NCBI GenBank assembly: GCA_001508935.1
Contig: LGFQ01000006.1
Location: 1 to 40,153 of the forward strand
Source of the DNA: Synergistales bacterium 54_24
GTDB lineage: Bacteria; Synergistota; Synergistia; Synergistales; Thermosynergistaceae
DNA: 40,153 bases
Direction: 5' to 3'
Positions 4,584 to 35,960 of the stretch are shown here, in pieces. The position numbers and the translations under genes were made by a program. Numbering within the stretch: position 1 is the first letter of the stretch; each line of letters starts with the position of its first letter. A model generated the notes under the pieces. It was given only the letters and a program-made list of their open reading frames with translations, was not told where the DNA came from and ran no database searches.

Positions 4584-4639
4584 GATTTTGGGCATATTGG
4601 GTGTAAAGGATATTGCATACGTTTGAGGAGGTGGTTCGC

Positions 4640-5125
4640 TTGGTAATCTTCATCCTTTCCGCCGTCACTTACCTTTTGCTCGTCTGGAGCGGCGGAGGGA
4701 TACCGTTGTCCGAGGTCGTAATAGCGTTAGCTCTTGCGACGATAATGGCCGTCGCCGCAAAGAGCTGGAGTCCTTACGTCATGCGCTTAACGGCGCTGCG
4801 GCCAGATAGGTGGGTTCGCTTCGTCGTCTATTTGTTTGGTCCGTTCCTCGTGGCCATGGCCAAGGCCAACATCGATGTCGCATTGAGGGTCATTACAGGG
4901 AAGATCAGACCTGGCATAGTGAAGGTCAACATCGGGCTCACTAACGATATTTCCACGACTTTGCTCGCCAACTCCATAACGCTCACCCCTGGCACCCTCA
5001 CCGTCGATGTCGACGAGGAGGAGCGAGCGCTTTATATCCATTGGATCAATGTGACAAACGAGACCCCCGCTGGGTCGGAATTGTATGGCCCATTTGAGGA
5101 ATGGGCGAGGAGGATTGCGGAATGA
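4640..5125 (+). CDS. mbhA: Mbh subunit A (MrpE-like antiporter subunit)
   Basis: A 161-residue membrane protein of the MrpE/MnhE/PhaE family, part of the cation/proton antiporter half of the Mbh complex. Typical features are FGPFLVAMAKANIDVALRVITGKIRPGIVKV and the later TLLANSITLTPGTLTVDV. The start is set by GAGGAGGTGG at 4625-4634, seven nucleotides before the TTG at 4640 (MVIFILSAVTYLLLV). An in-frame TTG at 4613 has a poorer site. The stop overlaps the start of mbhB (ATGA). It is the first gene of the operon. Confidence 0.9.
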   Translation: MVIFILSAVTYLLLVWSGGGIPLSEVVIALALATIMAVAAKSWSPYVMRLTALRPDRWVRFVVYLFGPFLVAMAKANIDVALRVITGKIRPGIVKVNIGLTNDISTTLLANSITLTPGTLTVDVDEEERALYIHWINVTNETPAGSELYGPFEEWARRIAE

Positions 5126-5379
5126 CATCGTTGCTCCTCTTTGGCAGCGCTGTGTTGGGTATAGCGGCGGTTTTGATGGTAGGCCGCGCGATAGCCGGCC
5201 CCACAAATCCGGATAGAGTAGTGGCGCTTGATGCCCTTAATACCTTAGTTGTGGCCCTGATGGTCCTTTTGGCGGCCGTCTACGATTCGGTAGTTATGGT
5301 TGATGTGGCTATAGTCTATGCGGCTTTGTCTTTTGTGGGGACGATCTTTATCGCGCGCTATTTGGAGGGGGGGCTTTAG
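5122..5379 (+). CDS. mbhB: Mbh subunit B (MrpF-like)
   Basis: An 85-residue, three-helix membrane protein of the MrpF/MnhF/PhaF family. It contains VGRAIAGPTNPDRVVALDALNTLVVALMVLLA, in which GPTxxDRVVALDxL is the family signature. The ATG at 5122 overlaps the mbhA stop and has GAGGAGG seven nucleotides upstream; an in-frame ATG at 5101 lies inside mbhA. It belongs to the antiporter module. Confidence 0.92.
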   Translation: MTSLLLFGSAVLGIAAVLMVGRAIAGPTNPDRVVALDALNTLVVALMVLLAAVYDSVVMVDVAIVYAALSFVGTIFIARYLEGGL

Positions 5380-5381
5380 AA

Positions 5382-5765
5382 ATGTATGCGATCGCGTTCC
5401 TCTTGTTAGCCGTTTGCCTTTTCATAGGGCTTGCGTTTAATTGTCTTGCTACAGTTGCGTTGTATCGGTTTCCAGACGTATACACCCGCCTCCACGGCAC
5501 GACCAAATGCACGACCTTCGGCTCCATATTCACGTCGGCGGCCGTAGTGGTCTATTCCCTCTACAAGTACGGAAGTACGGGGGATGGGCGTTTCTTGGCG
5601 CTCTTCATCCACGTGGTGATTGCGGTTTTGGCGATTTTGATTACAAATGCCACTGGCGGTCACGCCATAGCCAGGGCAGCTCACAGGAGCGGGGTCAAAC
5701 CTGCCATGGCCGTGGTGGATCGCCTGGCCGAGAGAGAAAGAAAGGGCGGTGTCGCTAATGGCTGA
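5382..5765 (+). CDS. mbhC: Mbh subunit C (MrpG-like)
   Basis: A 127-residue membrane protein of the MrpG/MnhG/PhaG family. Three hydrophobic segments surround the signature RFPDVYTRLHGTTKCTTFG, followed by HVVIAVLAILITNATGGHAIARAAHRSG. The ATG lies 2 bp after the mbhB stop, with a GGAGGGGGG stretch as its ribosome site. Its 3' end overlaps mbhD by 8 bp. The C-terminal tail after residue 105 is basic and probably cytoplasmic. Confidence 0.92.
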   Translation: MYAIAFLLLAVCLFIGLAFNCLATVALYRFPDVYTRLHGTTKCTTFGSIFTSAAVVVYSLYKYGSTGDGRFLALFIHVVIAVLAILITNATGGHAIARAAHRSGVKPAMAVVDRLAERERKGGVANG

Positions 5766-6000
5766 CGTGGTGCATACAGCTGTGCTGGTCCTCATAGTGG
5801 TGTCGGCCTTTTTTGCGGCGTGGTTCAGAGATCTATTGGCGGCCGTGATTTCGCTTGCGATCATGAGCCTCATGATCTCGTTGGAGTTCTATATTCTGCA
5901 GGCCCCAGACGTGGCTATAGCCGAGGCTGGAATAGGGGCTGGCCTCTCTACGGCTATATACATGATCGCCCTGCGGGCATGCAAGCGCACCAGGAGGTGA
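5758..6000 (+). CDS. mbhD: Mbh subunit D (MrpA C-terminal region, DUF4040)
   Basis: An 80-residue membrane protein corresponding to part of the C-terminal region of the large antiporter subunit MrpA, which is encoded separately in Mbh complexes. The typical line is FFAAWFRDLLAAVISLAIMSL, then QAPDVAIAEAGIGAGLSTAIYM. The ATG at 5758 overlaps the mbhC stop (ATGGCTGA); a GTG at 5749 is an alternative start. Confidence 0.9.
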   Translation: MADVVHTAVLVLIVVSAFFAAWFRDLLAAVISLAIMSLMISLEFYILQAPDVAIAEAGIGAGLSTAIYMIALRACKRTRR

Positions 6001-6005
6001 AGCGC

Positions 6006-6284
6006 ATGAGAGGATGGCGAATCTTTTATCTATTGGGGCTCATGGTGATGTGCGGACTATTCTTCGGAGCACTTCAGGATATCCACCCCTTCGGTGAGCC
6101 CGTGGAACCTGCTATGGATGACTATTTCCTGGAGCGCGCTCAGGAAGAGAGGGCGGTCAACAACGTGGTCACTTCTATAGTCTTCGATTATAGAGGTTTT
6201 GATACGTTGGGCGAAGCCGCGGTTTTGTTTACGGCTGTCACGTCTGTGGTGGCGCTTTTTAGGAAGGGAGGTCACGAGCGATGA
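6006..6284 (+). CDS. mbhE: Mbh subunit E (MrpA C-terminal/MrpB-like)
   Basis: A 92-residue protein with an N-terminal helix (IFYLLGLMVMCGLFFGAL), an exposed middle part (PAMDDYFLERAQEERAVNNVVTSIVFDYRGFDTLGEAAVLF) and a final helix. NxVTSIxxDYRxFDTxGE is the signature of this MrpA-derived subunit. AGGAGGTG lies six nucleotides before the ATG at 6006. It overlaps mbhF by 4 bp. Confidence 0.92.
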   Translation: MRGWRIFYLLGLMVMCGLFFGALQDIHPFGEPVEPAMDDYFLERAQEERAVNNVVTSIVFDYRGFDTLGEAAVLFTAVTSVVALFRKGGHER

Positions 6285-6769
6285 ATCCCCTTTCCTTAAT
6301 AGTTAGGACGGTTTGCAATGTCTTCGCCTGGTTTATGGTGATCTTCGGCGCCTACATTATAGTTCACGGGCACCTCTCCCCGGGAGGAGGTTTTCAGGGT
6401 GGAGCTGTGGTTGCCACTTTTATAGCCTTCTTGTTGGTCGCCCATGGGGGAAAGAGGCTTCTCGGTTGGGTCAAAGAGGGATTATTCAGCGCTGTGGAGA
6501 GCACCGGGCTTTTGATATTCTTGGGGGCAGGGCTTTTCGGTATATCGACCACCTTCTTCTACAACTTTTTGGCGAAAAAGGGAGGACTCTTCGGCTCAGT
6601 CGTTCCTCTCGGCAGCAATACTGGGGTGCTGAACAGCTCGGGCACCATAGCGTTGATGAATTTGGCCGTCGGATTGGAGGTAGTTGCGGGGTTGTCGCTC
6701 ATAATCGTTTACATGTTCAAGGGAATTCGCCTGGAGCTCGATAGGGAGGAGGAGAGCCATGACAGGTAA
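6281..6769 (+). CDS. mbhF: Mbh subunit F (MrpB-like)
   Basis: A 162-residue membrane protein of the MnhB/MrpB family with four hydrophobic segments. Diagnostic features are FGAYIIVHGHLSPGGGFQGGAVVA at residues 22-45 and the later MNLAVGLEVVAGLSLI. GGGAGGTCACGAGCG precedes the ATG, and the gene is coupled to mbhE by ATGA. It overlaps mbhG by 11 bp. Confidence 0.94.
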   Translation: MNPLSLIVRTVCNVFAWFMVIFGAYIIVHGHLSPGGGFQGGAVVATFIAFLLVAHGGKRLLGWVKEGLFSAVESTGLLIFLGAGLFGISTTFFYNFLAKKGGLFGSVVPLGSNTGVLNSSGTIALMNLAVGLEVVAGLSLIIVYMFKGIRLELDREEESHDR

Positions 6770-7106
6770 CCTTCCTTTCGTCGTGGTTGGATTGCTCTTC
6801 GCCATAGGTATGGCTTTAATCCTCTTCGACAAAAACCTCATCAAGATAGCGATAGGCGTATCCATGGTCGAGGCAGCCACAAACCTGTTCCTCATAGTCT
6901 TGGGCTATAGGACGGGCGGGTCCATCCCGGTCTATACCCTGGCGGGCGAAGTTAAAAGGATGGTGTTGCCTACGCCGCAGGCGCTGACGCTTACAGCCAT
7001 CGTCATAGGTGTGGCGACGACAGCGCTGATGCTTTCCCTCATCATGTTGCTCTATCGCTATTACGGTACCCTTGACGTCCGCGAGATAAGGAGGCTGCGA
7101 GGATGA
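6759..7106 (+). CDS. mbhG: Mbh subunit G (MrpC/NuoK-like)
   Basis: A 115-residue, three-helix protein of the MrpC/NuoK family, a small channel-forming subunit. It has FAIGMALILFDKNLIKIAIGVSMVEAATNLFLI and DPxPQALxLT-like residues (PTPQALTLTAIVIGVATTALML). GGAGGAGGAG supplies the ribosome site inside mbhF. Its stop overlaps the start of mbhH. Confidence 0.93.
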   Translation: MTGNLPFVVVGLLFAIGMALILFDKNLIKIAIGVSMVEAATNLFLIVLGYRTGGSIPVYTLAGEVKRMVLPTPQALTLTAIVIGVATTALMLSLIMLLYRYYGTLDVREIRRLRG

Positions 7107-8662
7107 ACTGGCAAATCCATCTACCGGCGTTGCTCATAGCTGTACCGCTCTTGGGGGCCTTTGCGGCGCCCGCTTTCGCCAATCGTCGCCTGCGGGACGT
7201 CTGGTTTACGGTTATGATCGCCGCTACGACTGTCATAGCCTTTCTGCTTTGGCGACGAGTGGGGGCGGAAGGGATTGTGGTCTACGTAATGGGGGGCGAA
7301 AACTGGCACCTCACGCTCCCATCCGGTATGAGACTTCCCATCCGCATCATAATGGAAGTGGACGCCTTCAGCGCCTTTATGGCCCTTTCAGGGTCCATCG
7401 TTTCCTTTGCGGGGGCAATCTTCTCCCTAAGGTTTTTGGATCGCACGACCGGCGGAGAGAAGTTCGTCGCCCTCTATTTCCTCCTCACAGCTGGGATGCT
7501 CGGCATGGAGACTACTGGCGACCTCTTCAACTTTTTCGTCTTCTTGGAGATCGCTTCTGTAGCTTCTTATGGCCTCATCGCCTTTTGGCGCAATACTCCT
7601 GAGGCCATCGAAGCCAGCTTCAAGTACATGCTGCTGTCCACTATAGCGGCTCTCATGGTTTTGATAGGGGTGGGCATTCTCTACGGGCGATATGGGGCGC
7701 TCAACATGGCCGCCATAGCGAAATCCATGCAGTTAGGATTGCCGGAAAAGGTGGCACTTGCGCTCTTCGTAGCCGCTTTGGCCATGAAGTGCGGCGCTGT
7801 GCCGCTACACATGTGGGTTCCCGATGCTTATTCCCAGGCGCCGGCAGGTATATCGTGCTTCTTGGTCTCCGTGAGCCAGGCCTCCCTTTACGGCCTGTTC
7901 CGCATCTCCTTCTCCGTCTACGGTCGAGCCCTCGATACTCCTGCCGTGGCGTGGATCATAATAGTCTTCGGGATCCTCTCCATGTTTATCGCAGTTGTCA
8001 TGGCCGTCATACAGAAGGAAGTAAAGCGCCTCATGGCTTATCACGCTGTTTCTCAGACGGGCTACATGCTCTTGGGCGTCGGAGTTGGGTTGTTGGCCTT
8101 GGCGCACCCTCAGGCCATGAGCGAATACGGCTTCACGGCGATGCAAGGTGGCATTTTCCACATAATCAACCATGCCATGTATAAGGGCCTGCTCTTCCTC
8201 ACCGCCGGATCTATTTTCTATGCGTCTGGGACGCTCGATCTGAACCGGTTGGGAGGGTTGGCCAGGAATATGCCGTATACCACGGTCATGTTCGTTGTTT
8301 CTGCTGCGGCTATAGCCGGGCTTCCTCCGGTCAACGGGTTCGTGTCGAAGCTTTTGGTGTACGAGTCCTCCTTCGCCGTGCACCCCATCCTTACGGTGAT
8401 GGCGTTGGTCACGTCGATCCTCACCCTCGCTTCTTTCGTTAAGGTCTTTCAGTCGGCCTTTCTGGGTCCGGCGAGGGCGCGCTTTTCTGAGGTGAGGGAG
8501 GTTCCGAGGAGCATGCTCGTGGGCATGACGGTTTTGCTGGTGGCCATACTCTGGCTGAGCTTTATGCCCACATGGTCTTTGTCGAGGCTGGTTGGCCCGG
8601 CAGCGCAGGCTTTGGTCGATCAGGCGGGTTACATTGAGGCCGTTATGGGGAGTGGATTGTGA
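7103..8662 (+). CDS. mbhH: Mbh subunit H (MrpD/NuoM-like ion-translocating subunit)
   Basis: A 519-residue, roughly 14-helix proton-translocating subunit of the MrpD/NuoM/NuoL type. The acidic and basic residues expected in the channel are visible: Glu in FVFLEIASVASYGLIAF, Lys in ALAMKCGAVPLHMWVPDAYSQAP, Lys in KEVKRLMAYHAVSQTGYM, and His/Lys in HIINHAMYKGLLFLTAGSI. Only one such subunit is encoded, as in H2-evolving Mbh; the related sulfur-reducing Mbs/Mbx complexes carry two. The start overlaps the mbhG stop (ATGA). Confidence 0.94.
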   Translation: MNWQIHLPALLIAVPLLGAFAAPAFANRRLRDVWFTVMIAATTVIAFLLWRRVGAEGIVVYVMGGENWHLTLPSGMRLPIRIIMEVDAFSAFMALSGSIVSFAGAIFSLRFLDRTTGGEKFVALYFLLTAGMLGMETTGDLFNFFVFLEIASVASYGLIAFWRNTPEAIEASFKYMLLSTIAALMVLIGVGILYGRYGALNMAAIAKSMQLGLPEKVALALFVAALAMKCGAVPLHMWVPDAYSQAPAGISCFLVSVSQASLYGLFRISFSVYGRALDTPAVAWIIIVFGILSMFIAVVMAVIQKEVKRLMAYHAVSQTGYMLLGVGVGLLALAHPQAMSEYGFTAMQGGIFHIINHAMYKGLLFLTAGSIFYASGTLDLNRLGGLARNMPYTTVMFVVSAAAIAGLPPVNGFVSKLLVYESSFAVHPILTVMALVTSILTLASFVKVFQSAFLGPARARFSEVREVPRSMLVGMTVLLVAILWLSFMPTWSLSRLVGPAAQALVDQAGYIEAVMGSGL

Positions 8663-9003
8663 TGATGTTGGGGACTGTGCAGTCTGGTTTCGGGTATTGG
8701 AATGTATATGCCTGGATCATCTTCTTCGCCTTGGCGGCCGCGTTGGTCTTTTACTTCAGGTCCGCCGGCAGAAGCGACTATAAAGCGGGCACGTACCAGG
8801 ACGAGATATTCTACGGCGGCAACCCCGTCCCTAAAGATGGAGACGAGATAGCGGTGCCCGCCAGCTCGGCCTACTGGGGTTTCACGGAGGCCCTTTCCCC
8901 CTTTTACAAATTGCTTTTGAGCCTTCACACAGGTATCGCCAGCGATTACGTGGGCTATCTCGTCGTGACTACCGCTCTTATTTCTGCGCTCATCGTGCTG
9001 TAG
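8662..9003 (+). CDS. mbhI: Mbh subunit I
   Basis: A 113-residue protein with two hydrophobic segments (YAWIIFFALAAALVFYF and YVGYLVVTTALISALIVL) joined by a polar region that includes YQDEIFYGGNPVPKDGDEIAVPASSAYWGF. By position and pattern it matches MbhI, which links the antiporter and hydrogenase halves in the archaeal complex. The ATG at 8662 overlaps the mbhH stop (TGATG); a GTG at 8659 is possible. Assignment rests on operon position and topology more than on a strong motif. Confidence 0.82.
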   Translation: MMLGTVQSGFGYWNVYAWIIFFALAAALVFYFRSAGRSDYKAGTYQDEIFYGGNPVPKDGDEIAVPASSAYWGFTEALSPFYKLLLSLHTGIASDYVGYLVVTTALISALIVL

Positions 9004-9015
9004 GAGGCGAAAGAG

Positions 9016-9504
9016 ATGCTGAAGATGGATTTAACGAAGACGTTGGAAATCCTGCCCAGATCTATTTGGGTGTTCTTGTGCAACAGCGGTTCATGTAACG
9101 GCTGCGATATCGAGGTCGTGGCGACCTTGACCCCTCGCTATGACATCGAGCGGTTCGGCATGAAGCTCGTGGGCTCGCCGAGGCACGCAGATGCCCTCTT
9201 GGTCACTGGGCCCGTTACGAAGTATATGACGGAGAGGTTGAAGCATATCTACGATCAGATGCCGGACCCCAAGGTTGTGATCGTCGTGGGCAACTGCGGC
9301 TGTTCCGGCGACGTCTTCTACAAGTCGTACAACCTCGATGGGCCGGTGGACCAGGTGCTTCCCGTTGACGTCTATGTCCACGGTTGTCCGCCAAGGCCCG
9401 AGGCCATCATAGAGGGTGTAGCCAAGGCGGTCCTGAAGCTCGAGGCTTTGAGGGAATCGCTCAACGGCAAGGAGGCGGGTGTGGTCGATGTCGCGCAAGG
9501 CTGA
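9016..9504 (+). CDS. mbhJ: Mbh subunit J (hydrogenase small subunit, NuoB-like)
   Basis: A 162-residue iron-sulfur subunit homologous to NuoB, holding the [4Fe-4S] cluster next to the [NiFe] site. Cysteines are at 27 and 30 (SCNGCD), in VVGNCGCSGD and in VHGCPPRPEAI. Its position between mbhI and the NuoC/NuoD-like genes is the canonical Mbh order. AGGAGG lies seven nucleotides before the ATG. It overlaps mbhK by 17 bp. Confidence 0.95.
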   Translation: MLKMDLTKTLEILPRSIWVFLCNSGSCNGCDIEVVATLTPRYDIERFGMKLVGSPRHADALLVTGPVTKYMTERLKHIYDQMPDPKVVIVVGNCGCSGDVFYKSYNLDGPVDQVLPVDVYVHGCPPRPEAIIEGVAKAVLKLEALRESLNGKEAGVVDVAQG

Positions 9505-10036
9505 ATATACGGACAAGGCGATGGCTCCCGAAGCCGTGGTCAGCGCAATCAGAGAACGGCTGGGAGATGCGGTTGAAGTTGTGGAGCTAAAAGATCGGAA
9601 GGCCGGTTCGAACGATGCCGTATGTTTTCACGATCTATGGCTTCGCTGTCCAAAGGACAAGTTTCTCGAGCTCTTAGATATCCTCTTCGAGCTCGACTTC
9701 CCCCTTTTTCACGTCATGTCCGGGAACGACGAGGGGGAGGCTGTGCTTTTAAACTATCATTTTAGCTTATTTCAAGGTAGTGGTAGGGGCTCGAGGCTGG
9801 GCGTGGCTGTGAGCGTTTACCTCCCGAAGGACGATCTGGCCATGCCGTCAATACAGGACCGCATCCCCGGTGCAGAGTACAGCGAGCGGGAGATGCGGGA
9901 GATGCTCGGCATCAACTTCATGGGCATGCCGGACGAATCGCTCGTATTTTTGCCCGAAGATTGGGACGAGCGCGTTAAGCCTTGGCGGCGCGATGAAGCT
10001 GGACCAAAACCGGAACAGATACGGGAGCTGTCTTAG
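9488..10036 (+). CDS. mbhK: Mbh subunit K (NuoC-like)
   Basis: A 182-residue protein of the NuoC (30 kDa) family, a structural subunit next to the hydrogenase core. It shows HVMSGNDEGEAVLLNYHFSLF, SVYLPKDDLAMPSIQDRIPGAEYSEREMREMLGINFMGMPD and the terminal FLPEDWDE. The ATG at 9488 is 12 nt behind AAGGAGG in the 3' end of mbhJ; the GTG at 9479 is too close to that site to be preferred, but the exact start is uncertain. Confidence 0.9.
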   Translation: MSRKAEYTDKAMAPEAVVSAIRERLGDAVEVVELKDRKAGSNDAVCFHDLWLRCPKDKFLELLDILFELDFPLFHVMSGNDEGEAVLLNYHFSLFQGSGRGSRLGVAVSVYLPKDDLAMPSIQDRIPGAEYSEREMREMLGINFMGMPDESLVFLPEDWDERVKPWRRDEAGPKPEQIRELS

Positions 10037-10047
10037 GAGGGCATACA

Positions 10048-11286
10048 ATGGCTGTAGGAGAAGCTAAGACCTATAAGATACCGATAGGCCCCGTTCACGT
10101 TGGCCTCAAGGAGCCTATAACTACATGGCTTGAGGTGGACGGGGAGAGGATAGTAGACATAAAGGTTCGCCCGGGCGCCATCCATCGAGGGATAGAGTTC
10201 ATGGCTAGGGAGCGCAACCCTATCCAGGTCATATATCTGGCGGAACGTATTTGCGGGATCTGCTCCTTCGCCCACATCGAAAGCTTCGTCAGAGCCGTGG
10301 AGGACGCCGCATCGATCTCCGTACCCAAGCGAGCTCAGTACATAAGGACGATCATGCTCGAGCTCGAGAGGGTTCATTCCCACATCTTGTGGGCCGGCGT
10401 AGCCTGTTATACCTTCGGTTACGATTCGGCCTTCAACTTAGGGTTGCTGCTCAGGGAAAAGGTCATGGATGTGCTCGAGGCCATGTCCGGCAACCGTGTC
10501 AATTACGGCGTAGGCACCATAGGCGGCGTAAGGCGCGACATAACGCCAGAAGTGGCGGCGGCGCTTGAGGACCTGATAGATTATTACAGGAGGGAATTTG
10601 CGGCCTTTTACGAGGTGGCTACAGAAGACCCCATAACGAAGGCGCGGATGAGGCATGTGGGCACTCTGCCGCCTGAGGATGCAGTGCGCTACTGCGCGGT
10701 GGGGCCGACGGCGAGGGCGAGCGGCCTCCGGGTCGATCTGCGCTGGTCTTCTCCCTATGAGGCTTACGCCGATATAGAGGTGACGCCCATCGTGCCGCAA
10801 GACTACATGGGCGAGGTCTACGGCGACGTCTTCGACCGCTTCCTCGTGCGAGTCTTGGAGGTCTATCAATCGCTCGACATAATAGAAAAAGCGCTGTTAG
10901 GTTTGCCCAAAGGGCCACTCATGGCGGAGCCGAAACTGCCCAAACTATTGGCCCTTTTGAAGGCCGCCGACGGCGTCGGTTGGAGCAGTATAGAAGCTCC
11001 CAGAGGCGATGACGCGCACGTCATAAAACTCACAAAGGGTGACGAGAACGTCACGTGGTGGAAAGTGAGAGCTCCCACCTATGCCAATATCGTCTCATGG
11101 CCGATCATGTTCAGGGGACAGGAGATAGCAGATGCTCCTCTCATCGTAAACAGCATAGATCCATGCATATCCTGTATGGAGAGGGCCCTTGTGGTGGACA
11201 AAAAGAGCGGCTCGTCGGAGGTCTTGACGAAGGAGGAGCTCTTGAAGCGTTCAAGGGAGAAGACGAGGAGGTTGATGGGGCGATGA
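10048..11286 (+). CDS. mbhL: Mbh subunit L ([NiFe]-hydrogenase large subunit, group 4)
   Basis: A 412-residue catalytic subunit. Both metal-binding motifs are canonical: ERICGICSFAH with Cys69 and Cys72, and DPCISCMER with Cys373 and Cys376. The four cysteines that hold the [NiFe] centre are therefore all present in CxxC spacing, which supports true H2 chemistry rather than the sulfur-reducing Mbs/Mbx variant or complex I. Thirty-three residues follow DPCISCMER, long enough to be a cleavable maturation peptide, though processing cannot be judged from sequence. AGGAGGG lies seven nucleotides before the ATG. No hyp maturation genes are in the window. Confidence 0.96.
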   Translation: MAVGEAKTYKIPIGPVHVGLKEPITTWLEVDGERIVDIKVRPGAIHRGIEFMARERNPIQVIYLAERICGICSFAHIESFVRAVEDAASISVPKRAQYIRTIMLELERVHSHILWAGVACYTFGYDSAFNLGLLLREKVMDVLEAMSGNRVNYGVGTIGGVRRDITPEVAAALEDLIDYYRREFAAFYEVATEDPITKARMRHVGTLPPEDAVRYCAVGPTARASGLRVDLRWSSPYEAYADIEVTPIVPQDYMGEVYGDVFDRFLVRVLEVYQSLDIIEKALLGLPKGPLMAEPKLPKLLALLKAADGVGWSSIEAPRGDDAHVIKLTKGDENVTWWKVRAPTYANIVSWPIMFRGQEIADAPLIVNSIDPCISCMERALVVDKKSGSSEVLTKEELLKRSREKTRRLMGR

Positions 11287-12284
11287 GCGTCCTGATATTC
11301 GTGGCCAAGCTGATCGCAGGCGGTGCACTTCTATGTTTAGGGGTGCTACTTGCGCTGCTTTACGAGGGCGTCGATCGCATAATCAGCGCACGTATGCAGC
11401 GCAGGTTCGGCCCTCCTCTCCTGCAGCCCTTTTACGACGTATTGAAGCTCTTGGGCAAAGAGTCCATAGTGCCCCGCAGGGCGGTGGTGTGGGCCTTTAA
11501 TGGAGCTCCGTGGATGGCCCTCGTCACTGCACTCATGGTCTTTCTCTACATACCGATGGGAGCACTTCCTCCTATATTGGGAAGTGAGGGGGACTTGATC
11601 CTCATCACGTATCTCTTGGCCCTCTCTGCCGTAGCCCTCGTCGTAGGCGGCTTTGCCAGCGGCTCTCCCTATGCGAACGTGGGCTCTCAGCGCGAAATGG
11701 TGCTGATGATGAGCTATGAGTTGCCTTTGGCCCTCGTCATATCGACGATGGCCTGGCTCGTATATCGTCGAGGGATTCCCGGCCCTGCTTTCAGCCTCGA
11801 GACCTTTTCTTCCCTTTCTCTCTGGAATACGGTCGGCTGGATCGGGACACTTGGGCTCTTGTCGCTGTTGCTCGCATTGTTGGCTGTGGTGCCGGCCGAA
11901 GTGGGAAAGGTCCCCATGGACATAGCGGAGGCGAAGACGGAGATCCTCGAGGGGTTGATCTCTGAATATTCGGGGAGAAACCTGGCGCTGCTTAAGCTCA
12001 CTTACTCCGTTAGAACGTTGGCGTTGTGCGCTGTGGTCGTTGCGCTCTTCTTCCCCTGGTCTTTGGGCAAGGCGATGGGCTTCTCCGGCGTTGGGCTGTT
12101 CGTCATAGATTTCGTCTGGTTTTGGATCAAGACGTTCATCGTCCAGACTGTAGGGGTAACGACAGTGCGGACGGCCTTTGGTAGGTTCAAGATTTGGCAG
12201 GCCGCGCGCTTCTATTGGGTTCAGGTCGGCGGCTTGGCCCTGGCGGGTATGCTGCTTCTTACGCTTGAAGTGGCGATCTATTGA
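11283..12284 (+). CDS. mbhM: Mbh subunit M (NuoH-like membrane anchor)
   Basis: A 333-residue membrane protein of the NuoH/HyfC family anchoring the hydrogenase module. Typical features are DRIISARMQRRFGPPLLQPFYDVLKLLGKE near the N-terminus, ANVGSQREMVLMMSYELPL in the middle and VPADxxxVPMDIxEAxTE-like VPAEVGKVPMDIAEAKTEILEG near residue 210. The start is the ATG at 11283, overlapping the mbhL stop. An upstream extension of the same frame lies wholly inside mbhL and is not used. Confidence 0.95.
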   Translation: MSVLIFVAKLIAGGALLCLGVLLALLYEGVDRIISARMQRRFGPPLLQPFYDVLKLLGKESIVPRRAVVWAFNGAPWMALVTALMVFLYIPMGALPPILGSEGDLILITYLLALSAVALVVGGFASGSPYANVGSQREMVLMMSYELPLALVISTMAWLVYRRGIPGPAFSLETFSSLSLWNTVGWIGTLGLLSLLLALLAVVPAEVGKVPMDIAEAKTEILEGLISEYSGRNLALLKLTYSVRTLALCAVVVALFFPWSLGKAMGFSGVGLFVIDFVWFWIKTFIVQTVGVTTVRTAFGRFKIWQAARFYWVQVGGLALAGMLLLTLEVAIY

Positions 12285-12297
12285 GGAGGGAATGCCA

Positions 12298-12789
12298 GTG
12301 TTAAATCGCATGACTTTGCAGATCTTAAAACAAGTTGTCGAGAAGCCATTTACCAACCTCTTTCCGGTGCCTCATATGCCCGACAATTTGGGAGAGGTGT
12401 TGAAGGCAGCCGCCGAGGGACGCGTGCAGATCAATCCGCCCGTAGAGGTGCCGAAGCATTTTCGCGGCAAAATCGCCTACGACAAGGGAAAGTGCATAGG
12501 CTGTCGCCTTTGCACGCGCGTGTGCCCGGCCAACGCCATAACCTACATCCCTGAGGAGAAGAAGGTTATGGTGCATGTGGATCGCTGCTGTTTTTGCGCG
12601 CAGTGCACGGAGATATGCCCGGTGCAGTGCTTGTGGATGACGGAAGAGTTCCTGATCTCATCGTATGACAGGAAAGCTCAAGTGGTGGTCGATTCAGGCA
12701 AAAAAGCCGAAGAGGTGCCGCAGGTCGAGCGCATCCCATCTGAAGCGCAAAGAGTGGAGACCTCCGCGCCAGAAGCCGCCTCGTCGTAA
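12298..12789 (+). CDS. mbhN: Mbh subunit N (NuoI-like 2[4Fe-4S] ferredoxin)
   Basis: A 163-residue electron-entry subunit with two [4Fe-4S] motifs, CIGCRLCTRVCP and CCFCAQCTEICP, expected to take electrons from soluble ferredoxin. The ribosome site GAGGAGGG at 12283-12290 is only 1 nt before the ATG at 12292 but 7 nt before the GTG at 12298, so the GTG start (MLNRMTLQILKQ) is preferred. The tail after residue 130 is low in complexity (VERIPSEAQRVETSAPEAASS). It is the last gene of the operon. Confidence 0.94.
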   Translation: MLNRMTLQILKQVVEKPFTNLFPVPHMPDNLGEVLKAAAEGRVQINPPVEVPKHFRGKIAYDKGKCIGCRLCTRVCPANAITYIPEEKKVMVHVDRCCFCAQCTEICPVQCLWMTEEFLISSYDRKAQVVVDSGKKAEEVPQVERIPSEAQRVETSAPEAASS

Positions 12790-31591: not shown

Positions 31592-31837
31592 ATGGCAGAT
31601 TACGGAGTGTCGAGGGTCATCGATGTGAGAGGTGAAGTGTGCCCTGTGCCGGACGTGGAGACGAAGAGGGCCATAAAGGGCGCAAAAGATGGCGAGATCC
31701 TCAAGGTACTCGTCGATTACCCGCTTTCGGTGGAGAGGATCCCCGAGAGTGTGAAGAAACTTGGGAGCGAGATTTTAGAAGTTAAAAAGAACGGCGGAAG
31801 CGACTGGGAGATCTATGTGAAGGTTAAAAAGCAGTAA
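31592..31837 (+). CDS. tusA: TusA-family sulfur carrier (YeeD-like)
   Basis: An 81-residue protein of the TusA/SirA/YeeD family. The signature CPxP occurs as VRGEVCPVPDVETKRAI with the sulfur-carrying Cys at 17. It should carry persulfide sulfur (or selenium) in the cytoplasm. The following gene is yeeE; the YeeD-YeeE pair is known to work together in thiosulfate uptake, which supports a joint role here. GGAGGGATGAGAA precedes the ATG. Confidence 0.92.
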   Translation: MADYGVSRVIDVRGEVCPVPDVETKRAIKGAKDGEILKVLVDYPLSVERIPESVKKLGSEILEVKKNGGSDWEIYVKVKKQ

Positions 31838-31903: not shown

Positions 31904-32926
31904 ATGATCTTCAGCGGTTTTTTGATCGGCCTGATATTTGGGGTGCTCTTGCAGAGGAGCAGGATGTGCTTCAATTCGGCCTTCAGAGACGTGTTGCTAT
32001 TCAAAGATAACTACCTGCTGAAAATGGCCTTGCTCGCCGTGGCCGTTCAGATGATCTTAGTGCACTTGCTGGCCCAGATGGGCTTGATCGCGCTTGCGCC
32101 TTCTGGTCTCAATTGGGTTGCGAACATAGTCGGTGCGTATATTTTTGGCCTTGGCATGGTTTTGGCAGGAGGTTGTGCCAGCGGCGTGACCTATAGAGCC
32201 GGAGAAGGGCTTACGACCGCATGGTTCGCCGCCATTTTTTACGGCGGGACGGCTTACGCCATGAGGAACGGCGGGGTATTCAGCGGCGTATGGAAATGGT
32301 TCCAGGGGTTTGGCGTTGCGCCATTTCAGTATTTTGATCAAACTACGGGAGAAGGGTTTTCCAAGCTATATCTGCAGAAGACAGGGCAGACGTTGCCATC
32401 CGTCTTCGGCGTCAACCCGTGGATCGTTGTGGTTATATGCGCGGCCCTGATCCTCTGGTATGTCTTCGGCACGCAGACCAGCGAGAGGGAATCGAAAATA
32501 GGATTAAAGACGGCTGCTGTGCTGTTGGGTGCCGTGGGGGCCTTTGCCTGGTATTTCAGCGAACTGGTCGGAAGGAACTACGGGATGGGGATCACCGGAG
32601 GGTGGTCCAACATATGGAGTGTTTGGCTTTCGGGTAAACCTTTCAGCTGGGATGGTTTAAGCGTCTTAGGCATAGTGGTAGGCGCTGCGATATCCGCCGT
32701 TATGGCGAAGGAGTTCAAGCTTAGGATGCCGAGGAATCCCATCACATATGTGCAAGTCATGGGCGGTGGCATCATCATGGGCTTCGGTGCCACCATAGGT
32801 GGTGGGTGAAACATCGGTCATTTCTTCACCGGCGTGCCGGTGCTCGCGATTTCTTCCATAGTTGCTTCGGTGTTTTTTGTGTTGGGAAACTGGACACTTG
32901 CCTGGTTTCTATACGGGCGAGAATAA
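31904..32926 (+). CDS. yeeE: YeeE/YedE-family transporter with in-frame TGA (probable selenocysteine)
   Basis: A roughly 340-residue, multi-helix inner-membrane protein of the YeeE/YedE family, which imports thiosulfate or related chalcogen compounds. The family has three key cysteines. The first two are visible as RMCFN near residue 23 and AGGCASG near 91. At the third the codon is TGA (32807-32809, residue 302), in the context FGATIGGG-TGA-NIGHFFTGVPVLA. The frame then stays open for 38 codons of hydrophobic, family-like sequence to TAA, and dsrE starts 21 bp later. I read the TGA as selenocysteine. A nonsense mutation is the alternative. The start is ATG 31904 behind GAGGGGGAG; an ATG at 31880 lies within the preceding hairpin. 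Confidence 0.85.
32827..32842 (+). promoter_or_regulatory. Candidate bacterial SECIS stem-loop
   Basis: CACCGG (32827-32832), loop CGTG and CCGGTG (32837-32842) form a perfect short hairpin inside the yeeE frame. Its apical loop lies 23 nt after the TGA and has a G in its first two positions, both within the range usually given for bacterial SECIS elements. The loop is small and the stem was found by eye. Confidence 0.6.
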
Positions 32927-32947: not shown

Positions 32948-33304
32948 ATGAAGATAGCCATACAAGTGATGACACCGCCTTACTCTTACCAGGATATGGA
33001 TAGCGCAATAAAGATTGCCGAGGCGGCTCTCAACAAGGGACACGAAGTAGCGATTTTTCTCTTTGCCGACGCAGTAAATGCCGCCAATTCGCGCGTTAAG
33101 CCAATCAGAGTTGACAGGAACATCCCGAAAAAGTTAGAAGAGCTTATAAAAGAGAAGGGTTTGAGGGTCGATATTTGCGGATTATGTATGGAATACAGGG
33201 GACTCGCGGAAGAGGCCCTCATAGAGGGAGCGCGCCCTAGCGGATTGCCGGAGCTGGCGAAGTTGATCGCCGAAAGCGATAGATTCTTGAGTTTTTCTGC
33301 ATGA
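32948..33304 (+). CDS. dsrE: DsrE/TusD-like sulfur-relay protein
   Basis: A 118-residue DsrE-family protein. VDICGLCMEYRGL contains Cys77 and Cys80, the second at the usual active position ahead of RGL. Together with the next two genes it has the order dsrE-dsrF-dsrH (tusD-tusC-tusB), whose products form a hexameric sulfur-transfer complex fed by TusA. GGGAGG precedes the ATG, 21 bp after the yeeE stop. Confidence 0.88.
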   Translation: MKIAIQVMTPPYSYQDMDSAIKIAEAALNKGHEVAIFLFADAVNAANSRVKPIRVDRNIPKKLEELIKEKGLRVDICGLCMEYRGLAEEALIEGARPSGLPELAKLIAESDRFLSFSA

Positions 33305-33315
33305 GGTGACGAATA

Positions 33316-33672
33316 ATGTCCAAGAAGGTGCTCTTTGTGGTTTACCAGTCCCCCGTGGGTTCTGTATGGGTCAATGAGGCATTCCGCACGGCCTTCGGCA
33401 TGTATGGCGAGGACGTGGAGCCTGCTCTCTTGCTCATGAATGAGGGTGTAGTTGCGTTGGCTCGGGAGTGTAAGCCCGAGAGGTTGGGTTTGCTTTCGGT
33501 GAAGATGGTGCAGCGCTACGTCAAACGTTATGGCACGCCCGTATATGCCGTCGGGGAAGATCTCGATGCTTACGGCGTGAGGGATGTAGATGAGGGATTT
33601 TCGGCCCAGACCGTCGGAAAGAACAAGCTCCCCGAGCTCTTCCGTCAACACGATTACGTTATATTCATGTGA
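33316..33672 (+). CDS. dsrF: DsrF/TusC-like sulfur-relay protein
   Basis: A 118-residue protein of the DsrE/DsrF-like fold: KVLFVVYQSPVGSVWVNEAFRTAFGMYGEDVEPALLLMNEGVVAL, with the C-terminal HDYVIFM. Its position between the DsrE-like and DsrH-like genes marks it as the TusC/DsrF member. It has a single cysteine (about 52). GAGGTGA lies before the ATG. Confidence 0.82.
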   Translation: MSKKVLFVVYQSPVGSVWVNEAFRTAFGMYGEDVEPALLLMNEGVVALARECKPERLGLLSVKMVQRYVKRYGTPVYAVGEDLDAYGVRDVDEGFSAQTVGKNKLPELFRQHDYVIFM

Positions 33673-33682
33673 GGTGAAGACT

Positions 33683-33952
33683 ATGTCTCTTATCTTGATA
33701 AAGTATGGTCCAGATCATCCGGCGGAAGGGGCAAAGCTTTCGAGTGCAAAGGAGGCAGATTGTGCGGTACTCATCCAAAACGGCGTCTATTGGGCTGCCT
33801 GCGATGCCCTGAAAGACGCAAAATGCCCGGTTTATGCTATAAAAGATGACTTCCTCGCCAGAGGTTACGAGGAAGGGCAATTCGATATCGAACTTATAGA
33901 CTACGATGCCTTGGTCGAGCTGATTGAGAGGAATGAAGGGTTTGTAGGTTAG
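33683..33952 (+). CDS. dsrH: DsrH/TusB-like sulfur-relay protein
   Basis: An 89-residue protein of the DsrH/TusB family: ADCAVLIQNGVYWAACDALKDAKCPVYAIKDDFLARGY and the terminal IDYDALVELIERNEGFVG. The core VLIQNGVY...VYAIKDDxxARG is typical. GAGGTGAAG lies directly before the ATG at 33683; an upstream extension overlaps dsrF and is not used. It ends the operon, followed by a hairpin. Confidence 0.88.
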   Translation: MSLILIKYGPDHPAEGAKLSSAKEADCAVLIQNGVYWAACDALKDAKCPVYAIKDDFLARGYEEGQFDIELIDYDALVELIERNEGFVG

Positions 33953-34023: not shown

Positions 34024-34187
34024 TATTTGTTCGCTGCTCCGTACATGCTGCTGCCTGTGCAAAAATAGAGCGGGGCATGCCCCCTTGCTGAGATTTGTGA
34101 TAATATCAAACAAAGAAACGGCAGCTTTCGAGATCGGATGAATGAGGCGTTTATCTTTAAAGATCGATGCGAAGGGGGATAAATACG

Positions 34188-35960
34188 TTGTCTTTTTTTG
34201 GATCGCTCAGGCTCAGAAGCAGGTTGTTCCTTTTGGTGCTGTTGCTCGTGGCCATCAACGCGGTCACCGGGTGGTACCTTATAACTACCTTAAAAGGGCA
34301 AGAGAAAGCTATTGAAGAGCTTTATGGCGGGGGAATGGAGATAAGCAAGGCTGCCGAGGTCAATGTCGGCGCTTCCGGTCTGTTGACCTCCATGTACAGC
34401 ACCTTTAACAGCCCGGAGGCGATATGGTTGGGCCAGGCGCTCGTTATGGAGTCGATGTTACAGAACCTCGAAAGGGCTATAAGCGGCTACGAAGAGATCA
34501 CTGTGATCGAGGGCAATAAGGCGATATGGGATGAAACGGCTAAAACATTTGCCGAGTGGAGCGTTGGCGTCAGAGAGGTGATTGAGCTTTTCCGCAACGA
34601 AGCGCCGAGAGAAGAGGTCTCGAAGAAAATTGACGGCATGTATCTCTCCACTAACGCCCTCTCACAGAGGCTGGGCGAGATATTTTCCTTCTCTCAGATC
34701 GGCCTCTATACGATCTCCAGCAACGCAACTTCTCGCTTGAACGAGGCGATAAAGGCTTCTACCATCGCTATGGTCATTGCCGCCGCCGTCGCGCTGATCC
34801 TTGGGTTCTTGGTGGCCGGCTCCATAACTAAGCCTTTGAAGAAACTCGTAACAAGCGTCCAAAACATAGCGGAAGAGTTGGATCTCACGGCGAGGGGCAA
34901 TTCCAAGAGCAGGGATGAAACGGGTGATGTGAGTCGCTCCCTCGATTATCTCCTCGAGCGCTTCTCCGAAGCTCTGAAGGAGGTCTCCGGCGTTAGCCTG
35001 AGAGTGGCAGAGTCGGCTGAGAACTTCTCGGCCTCGAGCGAGGAGACGAGTGCCAACCTTCAAGAGGTTAAATCGAGCGCAGAGGCTATGGCCGCTCAGG
35101 TGGAAAACTTGGCCGCCGGAGTGGAGGAGATAAATGCCTCTGTGGAGGAGGTAGCCGCCGGGGCTCAGACGGCTGCCCAGAGGAGCCAAGAAGTGACCGA
35201 GGAAGTAGAAATGGCTCGAGGGGCAGGAGAGGATGGAATAAGAGCTGTCCAGAACGCCGTCGCTGCCTCTGTAAATGTTGCAGATGGGGCGCTCAAGGCG
35301 TCAAATGTGGTGAGCGAGCTCGCGGAGAGAGCCAAGCAAATTCAATCGTTCGTGGATGTTATAGGCTCTATTGCGGATCAGACGAACTTGCTTGCCCTGA
35401 ACGCTGCCATAGAGGCGGCTCGGGCCGGCGAACACGGCAGGGGTTTTGCCGTGGTGGCAGAAGAGGTGAGAAAGCTCGCCGAGGCCAGCAATGAGGCCGC
35501 TCTGAAGATCGCCGATCTCGCTCAGACGATAGTGGCAGACCTTGGCGAAGTCGTCGACGTCACTAAGGAGAATGCGCGGATGGCCGATGGTGCCAAAGTT
35601 CAGGCTCAGGAGGCTGAAAGTGCGATAAGTCGTATTATGGAGGCGCTGAAATCCATCACTGCCGCTGCTCAAGACATGGCTGCGCTGGCTGAAGAACAGG
35701 CTGCCTCCAGCGAGGAGATAGCCAGTACCGTTCAAAACATGGCAGAGCGGACTCAGGACGTCGCCAGCGCCGTAGACAGCGTTCATAGGAGCATCGAAGA
35801 GGTTGCCCAGGCATCCAGGCATATCGCCGAAGGGTCCTCCGAGCTCGCAGATCTGGCCGGGAAACTTCAGGGGCTCGTGAGGCAATTTAAGATCGAGAAG
35901 GAAGAAGAGAAGGCAACAGAAGAAACGATAGCGGAGGCTGGGCTCGTGCCGGTGAGTTAA
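34188..35960 (+). CDS. Methyl-accepting chemotaxis protein
   Basis: A 590-residue receptor: a first transmembrane helix (about 11-31), a helical extracytoplasmic domain of about 150 residues of the four-helix-bundle type, a second transmembrane helix (about 191-212, [20 protein letters not shown]), a HAMP domain ([22 protein letters not shown]) and a long cytoplasmic signalling hairpin. The conserved tip is [40 protein letters not shown]. No CheR-tethering pentapeptide is seen at the C-terminus. The TTG at 34188 has AAGGGGG 8 nt upstream and is preferred to the ATG at 34167. The ligand is unknown. Confidence 0.93.

Follow-up and report, generated by a model that had tools for sequence, protein, structure and literature searches.

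The yeeE gene in the window, a 40,153-nucleotide stretch of DNA from Synergistales bacterium 54_24, is best read as encoding a full-length sulfur importer of the TsuA/YeeE type, in which SelB and tRNA-Sec would decode the UGA at codon 302 as selenocysteine and Sec302 would serve as the outermost residue of the sulfur relay (probability about 0.9). The codon, its conservation, the selenocysteine (Sec) machinery and the surrounding operon are established here, and the insertion of selenocysteine itself is what we infer. The features that bear on this reading are the following.

31592..31837, plus strand: tusA-like sulfur carrier, 81 aa with a CPxP motif (Pfam TusA, 2.3e-21), adjoining yeeE in every homologous locus checked, that of the congener included
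31904..32926, plus strand: yeeE/tsuA read-through frame with predicted Sec at 302 (PF04143, 4.2e-81; NF052577, 491 bits; 6leo, E 7.9e-114)
31967..31969, plus strand: Cys22 codon (TGC), equivalent to Cys22 of Spirochaeta thermophila YeeE (StYeeE) by alignment
32174..32176, plus strand: Cys91 codon (TGT), equivalent to StYeeE Cys91 by alignment
32807..32809, plus strand: in-frame TGA, predicted Sec302, equivalent to StYeeE Cys293 by alignment; same TGA in congener G001
32827..32842, plus strand: candidate SECIS hairpin CACCGG-CGTG-CCGGTG, unchanged in G001, statistically weak
32948..33304, plus strand: dsrE/tusD-like sulfurtransferase subunit (Pfam DsrE, 1.5e-25)
33316..33672, plus strand: dsrF/tusC-like subunit, from synteny and a weak NCBIfam TusC match (1e-4) below the cut-off
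33683..33952, plus strand: dsrH/tusB-like subunit (Pfam DsrH, 6.5e-12; TIGR03011 above cut-off)

Reading frame and identity

The frame comprises 340 residues, ends in TAA and is interrupted once, by the TGA at residue 302 in the context GGG-TGA-NIGHFFTG. That this triplet takes the place of the third conserved cysteine of the family, as claimed in the first-pass annotation, was borne out by the alignment with StYeeE; its further statements, namely that the cysteines of RMCFN (Cys22) and AGGCASG (Cys91) are intact, that 38 residues are encoded 3' of the TGA, and that dsrE starts 21 bp past the TAA, are all correct.

The read-through protein scores 491.2 bits against the equivalog model for the thiosulfate transporter TsuA (NCBIfam NF052577, cut-off 400, positions 1-330 of 330) and aligns end to end with YeeE/TsuA from S. 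thermophila (PDB 6leo, 8j4c, 8k1r) at 56% identity. Both proteins share the three relay positions and a TusA-like partner, whose gene in the window adjoins yeeE directly upstream; unlike the window protein, which retains Cys22 and Cys91 and has the predicted Sec at the remaining relay position, StYeeE carries Cys293 at this position. An identity as selenium transporter was considered and rejected, the scores being 129.6 bits for the YedE/FdhT model (cut-off 350) and 53.6 bits for seleno_YedE (TIGR04112, cut-off 200). These putative selenium transporters are distant PF04143 relatives tied to selenium metabolism, whereas the window protein is a sulfur-type TsuA that itself contains the predicted Sec.

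Selenocysteine machinery and conservation of the codon

The machinery that a selenoprotein reading calls for had been named in the first-pass annotation as selA, selB, selC (tRNA-Sec) and selD, and all four are present in the genome: selB (361 bits) with selA directly upstream, a tRNA-Sec with anticodon TCA, and a selD which carries an in-frame TGA of its own at the active-site Cys/Sec position (SAAGU). In both species of the genus, grdA contains the TGA typical of this gene. A search for grdB gave no match, nor did it give one in any control genome. TGA is the ordinary stop of 8 of the 14 window genes tallied, so the genetic code is not reassigned.

The collection contains one congeneric species (G001); its yeeE has TGA at the identical codon, and the two proteins share 96% identity. 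Of the 78 codons that differ between the two genes, 67 do so synonymously and 11 nonsynonymously; upstream of the TGA, dS amounts to 0.37 and dN to 0.016 (dN/dS about 0.04), and downstream of it five synonymous changes and no nonsynonymous one were found (binomial P = 0.001 under neutrality). The codons 3' of the TGA are thus under purifying selection. Since the TGA is shared with a diverged species and the changes beyond it are synonymous only, a sequencing error is excluded and decay of the gene is very unlikely.

The 14 other distinct full-length homologues examined, S. thermophila among them, all have Cys at column 302. Together with the UGA in the PmpA branch described below, this is the usual Cys/Sec pattern. 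We regard it as very probable that the UGA at 32807-32809 codes for selenocysteine. The proposal that yeeE encodes a selenoprotein is well supported by the machinery, the Sec genes selD and grdA, the TGA of the congener and the cysteine of the other homologues.

A candidate SECIS element lies downstream. The hairpin, with a 6-bp stem and a 4-nt loop, begins 17 nt past the TGA, is identical in G001, and is similar in size to the 7-bp stem that follows the selD UGA at a short distance. Its position and sequence are as first described; as evidence it is weak when taken alone, an equally strong stem occurring in 1.9% of in-frame windows of the window genes and in 8% of the sequences obtained by recoding the same peptide synonymously. 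The folding energy is not significant (z-score near zero), and the prediction gives a competing structure slightly greater stability. The hairpin arises in part from the conserved T-G-V-P codons; it may plausibly act as a SECIS.

Distribution of TsuA and a parallel UGA in PmpA-like genes

TsuA of the window type is found in 2 of the 188 genomes of the phylum, both of this genus, and predicted Sec in the canonical TsuA branch was found only in these two genomes. A scan of genome contigs returned eight close relatives of yeeE in Thermotogota and Coprothermobacter (L053-L060), located in tusA-yeeE-dsrEFH clusters with the same five genes in the same order as in the window, and with YeeE proteins 48-61% identical. 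Unlike the window gene, the seven relatives with an intact frame all have a cysteine codon (TGT or TGC) at column 302; the same residue occurs in seven further full-length homologues, from relatives and other phyla. As L142 looks the same as L056, the tally comes to 13 distinct sequences, or 14 with S. thermophila. The eighth relative, from a Pseudothermotoga MAG (L059:992-1956), has a frameshifted yeeE inside an otherwise intact tusA-yeeE-dsrEFH operon. No relatives turned up in viral contigs, and the YeeE relatives returned by tblastn against plasmids did not exceed about 41% identity. A separate YeeE-family frame (G013:C1:271178-271690, L028) contains one in-frame TAG in its N-terminal part, which may reflect a pseudogene, an error or another recoding.

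A second group of UGA-containing genes emerged from a stricter GUxSGHG pattern search of the phylum, a loose UGA pattern having been too noisy. It consists of nine half-size, PmpA-like YeeE genes from other genera (families f7 and f2) with UGA in GARLADG-UGA-PSGHGLSG, the first base of the codon lying at the positions below.

L051:742, L130:647, L131:686, L136:840, L137:756: PmpA-like UGA
L132:1022, L133:1060, L134:801, L135:892, minus strand: PmpA-like UGA

Four further GUxSGHG candidates (L138-L141) were rejected as chance frames, and the GUNIGH-like matches of the loose pattern, in G018, G025 and G040, were not YeeE frames. Like the PmpA half-size transporters (PMC11582611), the nine proteins belong to PF04143, and their UGA aligns to the same column as Sec302/Cys293, in keeping with the correspondence of the PmpA cysteine to Cys293 given in the SoxT paper (PMC11582611). 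Downstream of the UGA they share a conserved stem with an unpaired U and with a compensatory change at one of its pairs; these nine genes likely encode selenoproteins. They differ from the window TsuA in the half-length protein, the motif ADGUPSGHG, the hairpin and a separate branch of the tree. In an unrooted tree of the C-terminal region (108 columns), the well-supported branches require a minimum of two separate Cys/Sec changes. It is conceivable, though tentative, that the exchange of Cys for Sec at the outward substrate site evolved at least twice in the YeeE-family importers of the phylum (TsuA and PmpA) because a selenolate alters the chemistry of sulfur capture, for example by letting polysulfide or elemental sulfur be captured covalently through an Se-S contact, in place of hydrogen-bonded thiosulfate.

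Alternative readings of the UGA codon

If the UGA were a true stop, yeeE would encode a protein of 301 residues without the final portion of the membrane domain; such a gene could be functional or a young pseudogene. A mechanical ORF finder indeed stops at the UGA, as foreseen when truncation by standard annotation was predicted, and the hairpin is weak. Against this reading, which we regard as improbable, stand the presence of this TGA in a second species (96% identity), the purely synonymous differences beyond it, its placement exactly on the codon of a conserved relay cysteine, the intact operon, and the Sec-type selD and grdA elsewhere in the genome. An error of sequencing or assembly that turned a Cys codon into TGA would be the least probable explanation of all: the source assembly is fragmented (152 contigs), but a second, independently diverged genome, with 78 codon differences in yeeE, has the same TGA.

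Readthrough might also follow another route, either near-cognate readthrough with insertion of a different amino acid or a selenium-dependent switch between a short and a full-length product in place of constitutive Sec. Termination that depends on selenium is a known property of Sec codons, and the weak hairpin statistics could be accommodated in this way; the Sec machinery is present, however, and the column is occupied by Cys in every other full-length homologue checked and by UGA in the PmpA branch, so that we regard this route, too, as improbable. Constitutive decoding as selenocysteine remains the preferred reading.

Operon and proposed mechanism

The gene order tusA-yeeE-dsrE-dsrF-dsrH is common to the congener and to 12 of 12 other loci checked (11 distinct), and this conserved operon points to a sulfane-sulfur importer feeding a sulfur-transfer relay as the best function for the window yeeE. 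In T. maritima, which has a yeeE/dsrE/tusA cluster, yeeE is induced 42.6-fold by thiosulfate (PMC9431562), and sulfane sulfur is the presumed cargo of the type II yeeE-tusA-dsrEFH cluster in cable bacteria (PMC13293266).

For the relay, the outward site and the specificity for thiosulfate we rely on published studies of related proteins. In StYeeE, sulfur is relayed from Cys293 via Cys91 and Cys22 to the TusA-like partner (PMC11073785), and Cys91 and Cys293 were reported to be indispensable (PMC11582611). Since the relay begins at Cys293 on the outer side, Sec302 would be the first contact at the entrance of the pathway, and not, as initially supposed, part of the exit step. In the proposed mechanism, the UGA would be read as Sec by SelB and tRNA-Sec to give the full-length importer, and incoming thiosulfate or sulfane sulfur would first be bound at Sec302, which replaces the outermost cysteine; from there sulfur would pass to Cys91, Cys22, the partner TusA and a carrier of the DsrEFH type. 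We further infer that the selenolate of Sec302, deprotonated at neutral pH, would capture sulfur by a more covalent contact of the Se-S type, in contrast to the S-H-S hydrogen bond that has been suggested where this residue is Cys. An anionic substrate could be repelled by this selenolate.

Two neighboring features may be recorded here. A methyl-accepting chemotaxis-like protein (34167-35960) follows dsrH in the window and is next in the congener too, a possible link between sulfur uptake and taxis. At 4613-12789, Mrp antiporter subunits are joined to subunits similar to NiFe-hydrogenase/complex I, forming an Mbh/Mbx-type cluster whose large subunit retains both CxxC motifs (RICGIC and DPCISC).

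Relation to known selenoproteins and implications

The first-pass annotation knew of no described Sec-containing YeeE, yet such a protein has already been catalogued (WP_012471001.1; PF04143, motif GUxSG) (PMC13188914, PMC9312934). It belongs to the same Pfam family, with a predicted Sec replacing a conserved Cys; the comparison is by the catalogued motif alone, and GUxSG is compatible both with GUPSG of PmpA and with GCASG around Cys91. The window protein differs in its motif GUNIG and as a single-chain, three-cysteine TsuA inside tusA-yeeE-dsrEFH. The literature searched contained no description of Sec in the canonical TsuA branch. Thus, predicted Sec in PF04143 was already on record, and what appears to be new, as far as this literature goes, is predicted Sec in the canonical three-cysteine TsuA branch, with a different motif and a separate origin.

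Ordinary annotation drops the last 39 residues of yeeE, so that such genes are easily overlooked or labelled as pseudogenes. The recurrence of UGA at this column in the PmpA-like genes suggests that selenocysteine is favored by the site as such. Most characterized selenoproteins are redox enzymes; here, a transporter with a predicted Sec at the point of substrate contact, in a family with known structures (6leo, 8j4c, 8k1r) and a simple growth assay, would make a role of selenium in transport directly testable.
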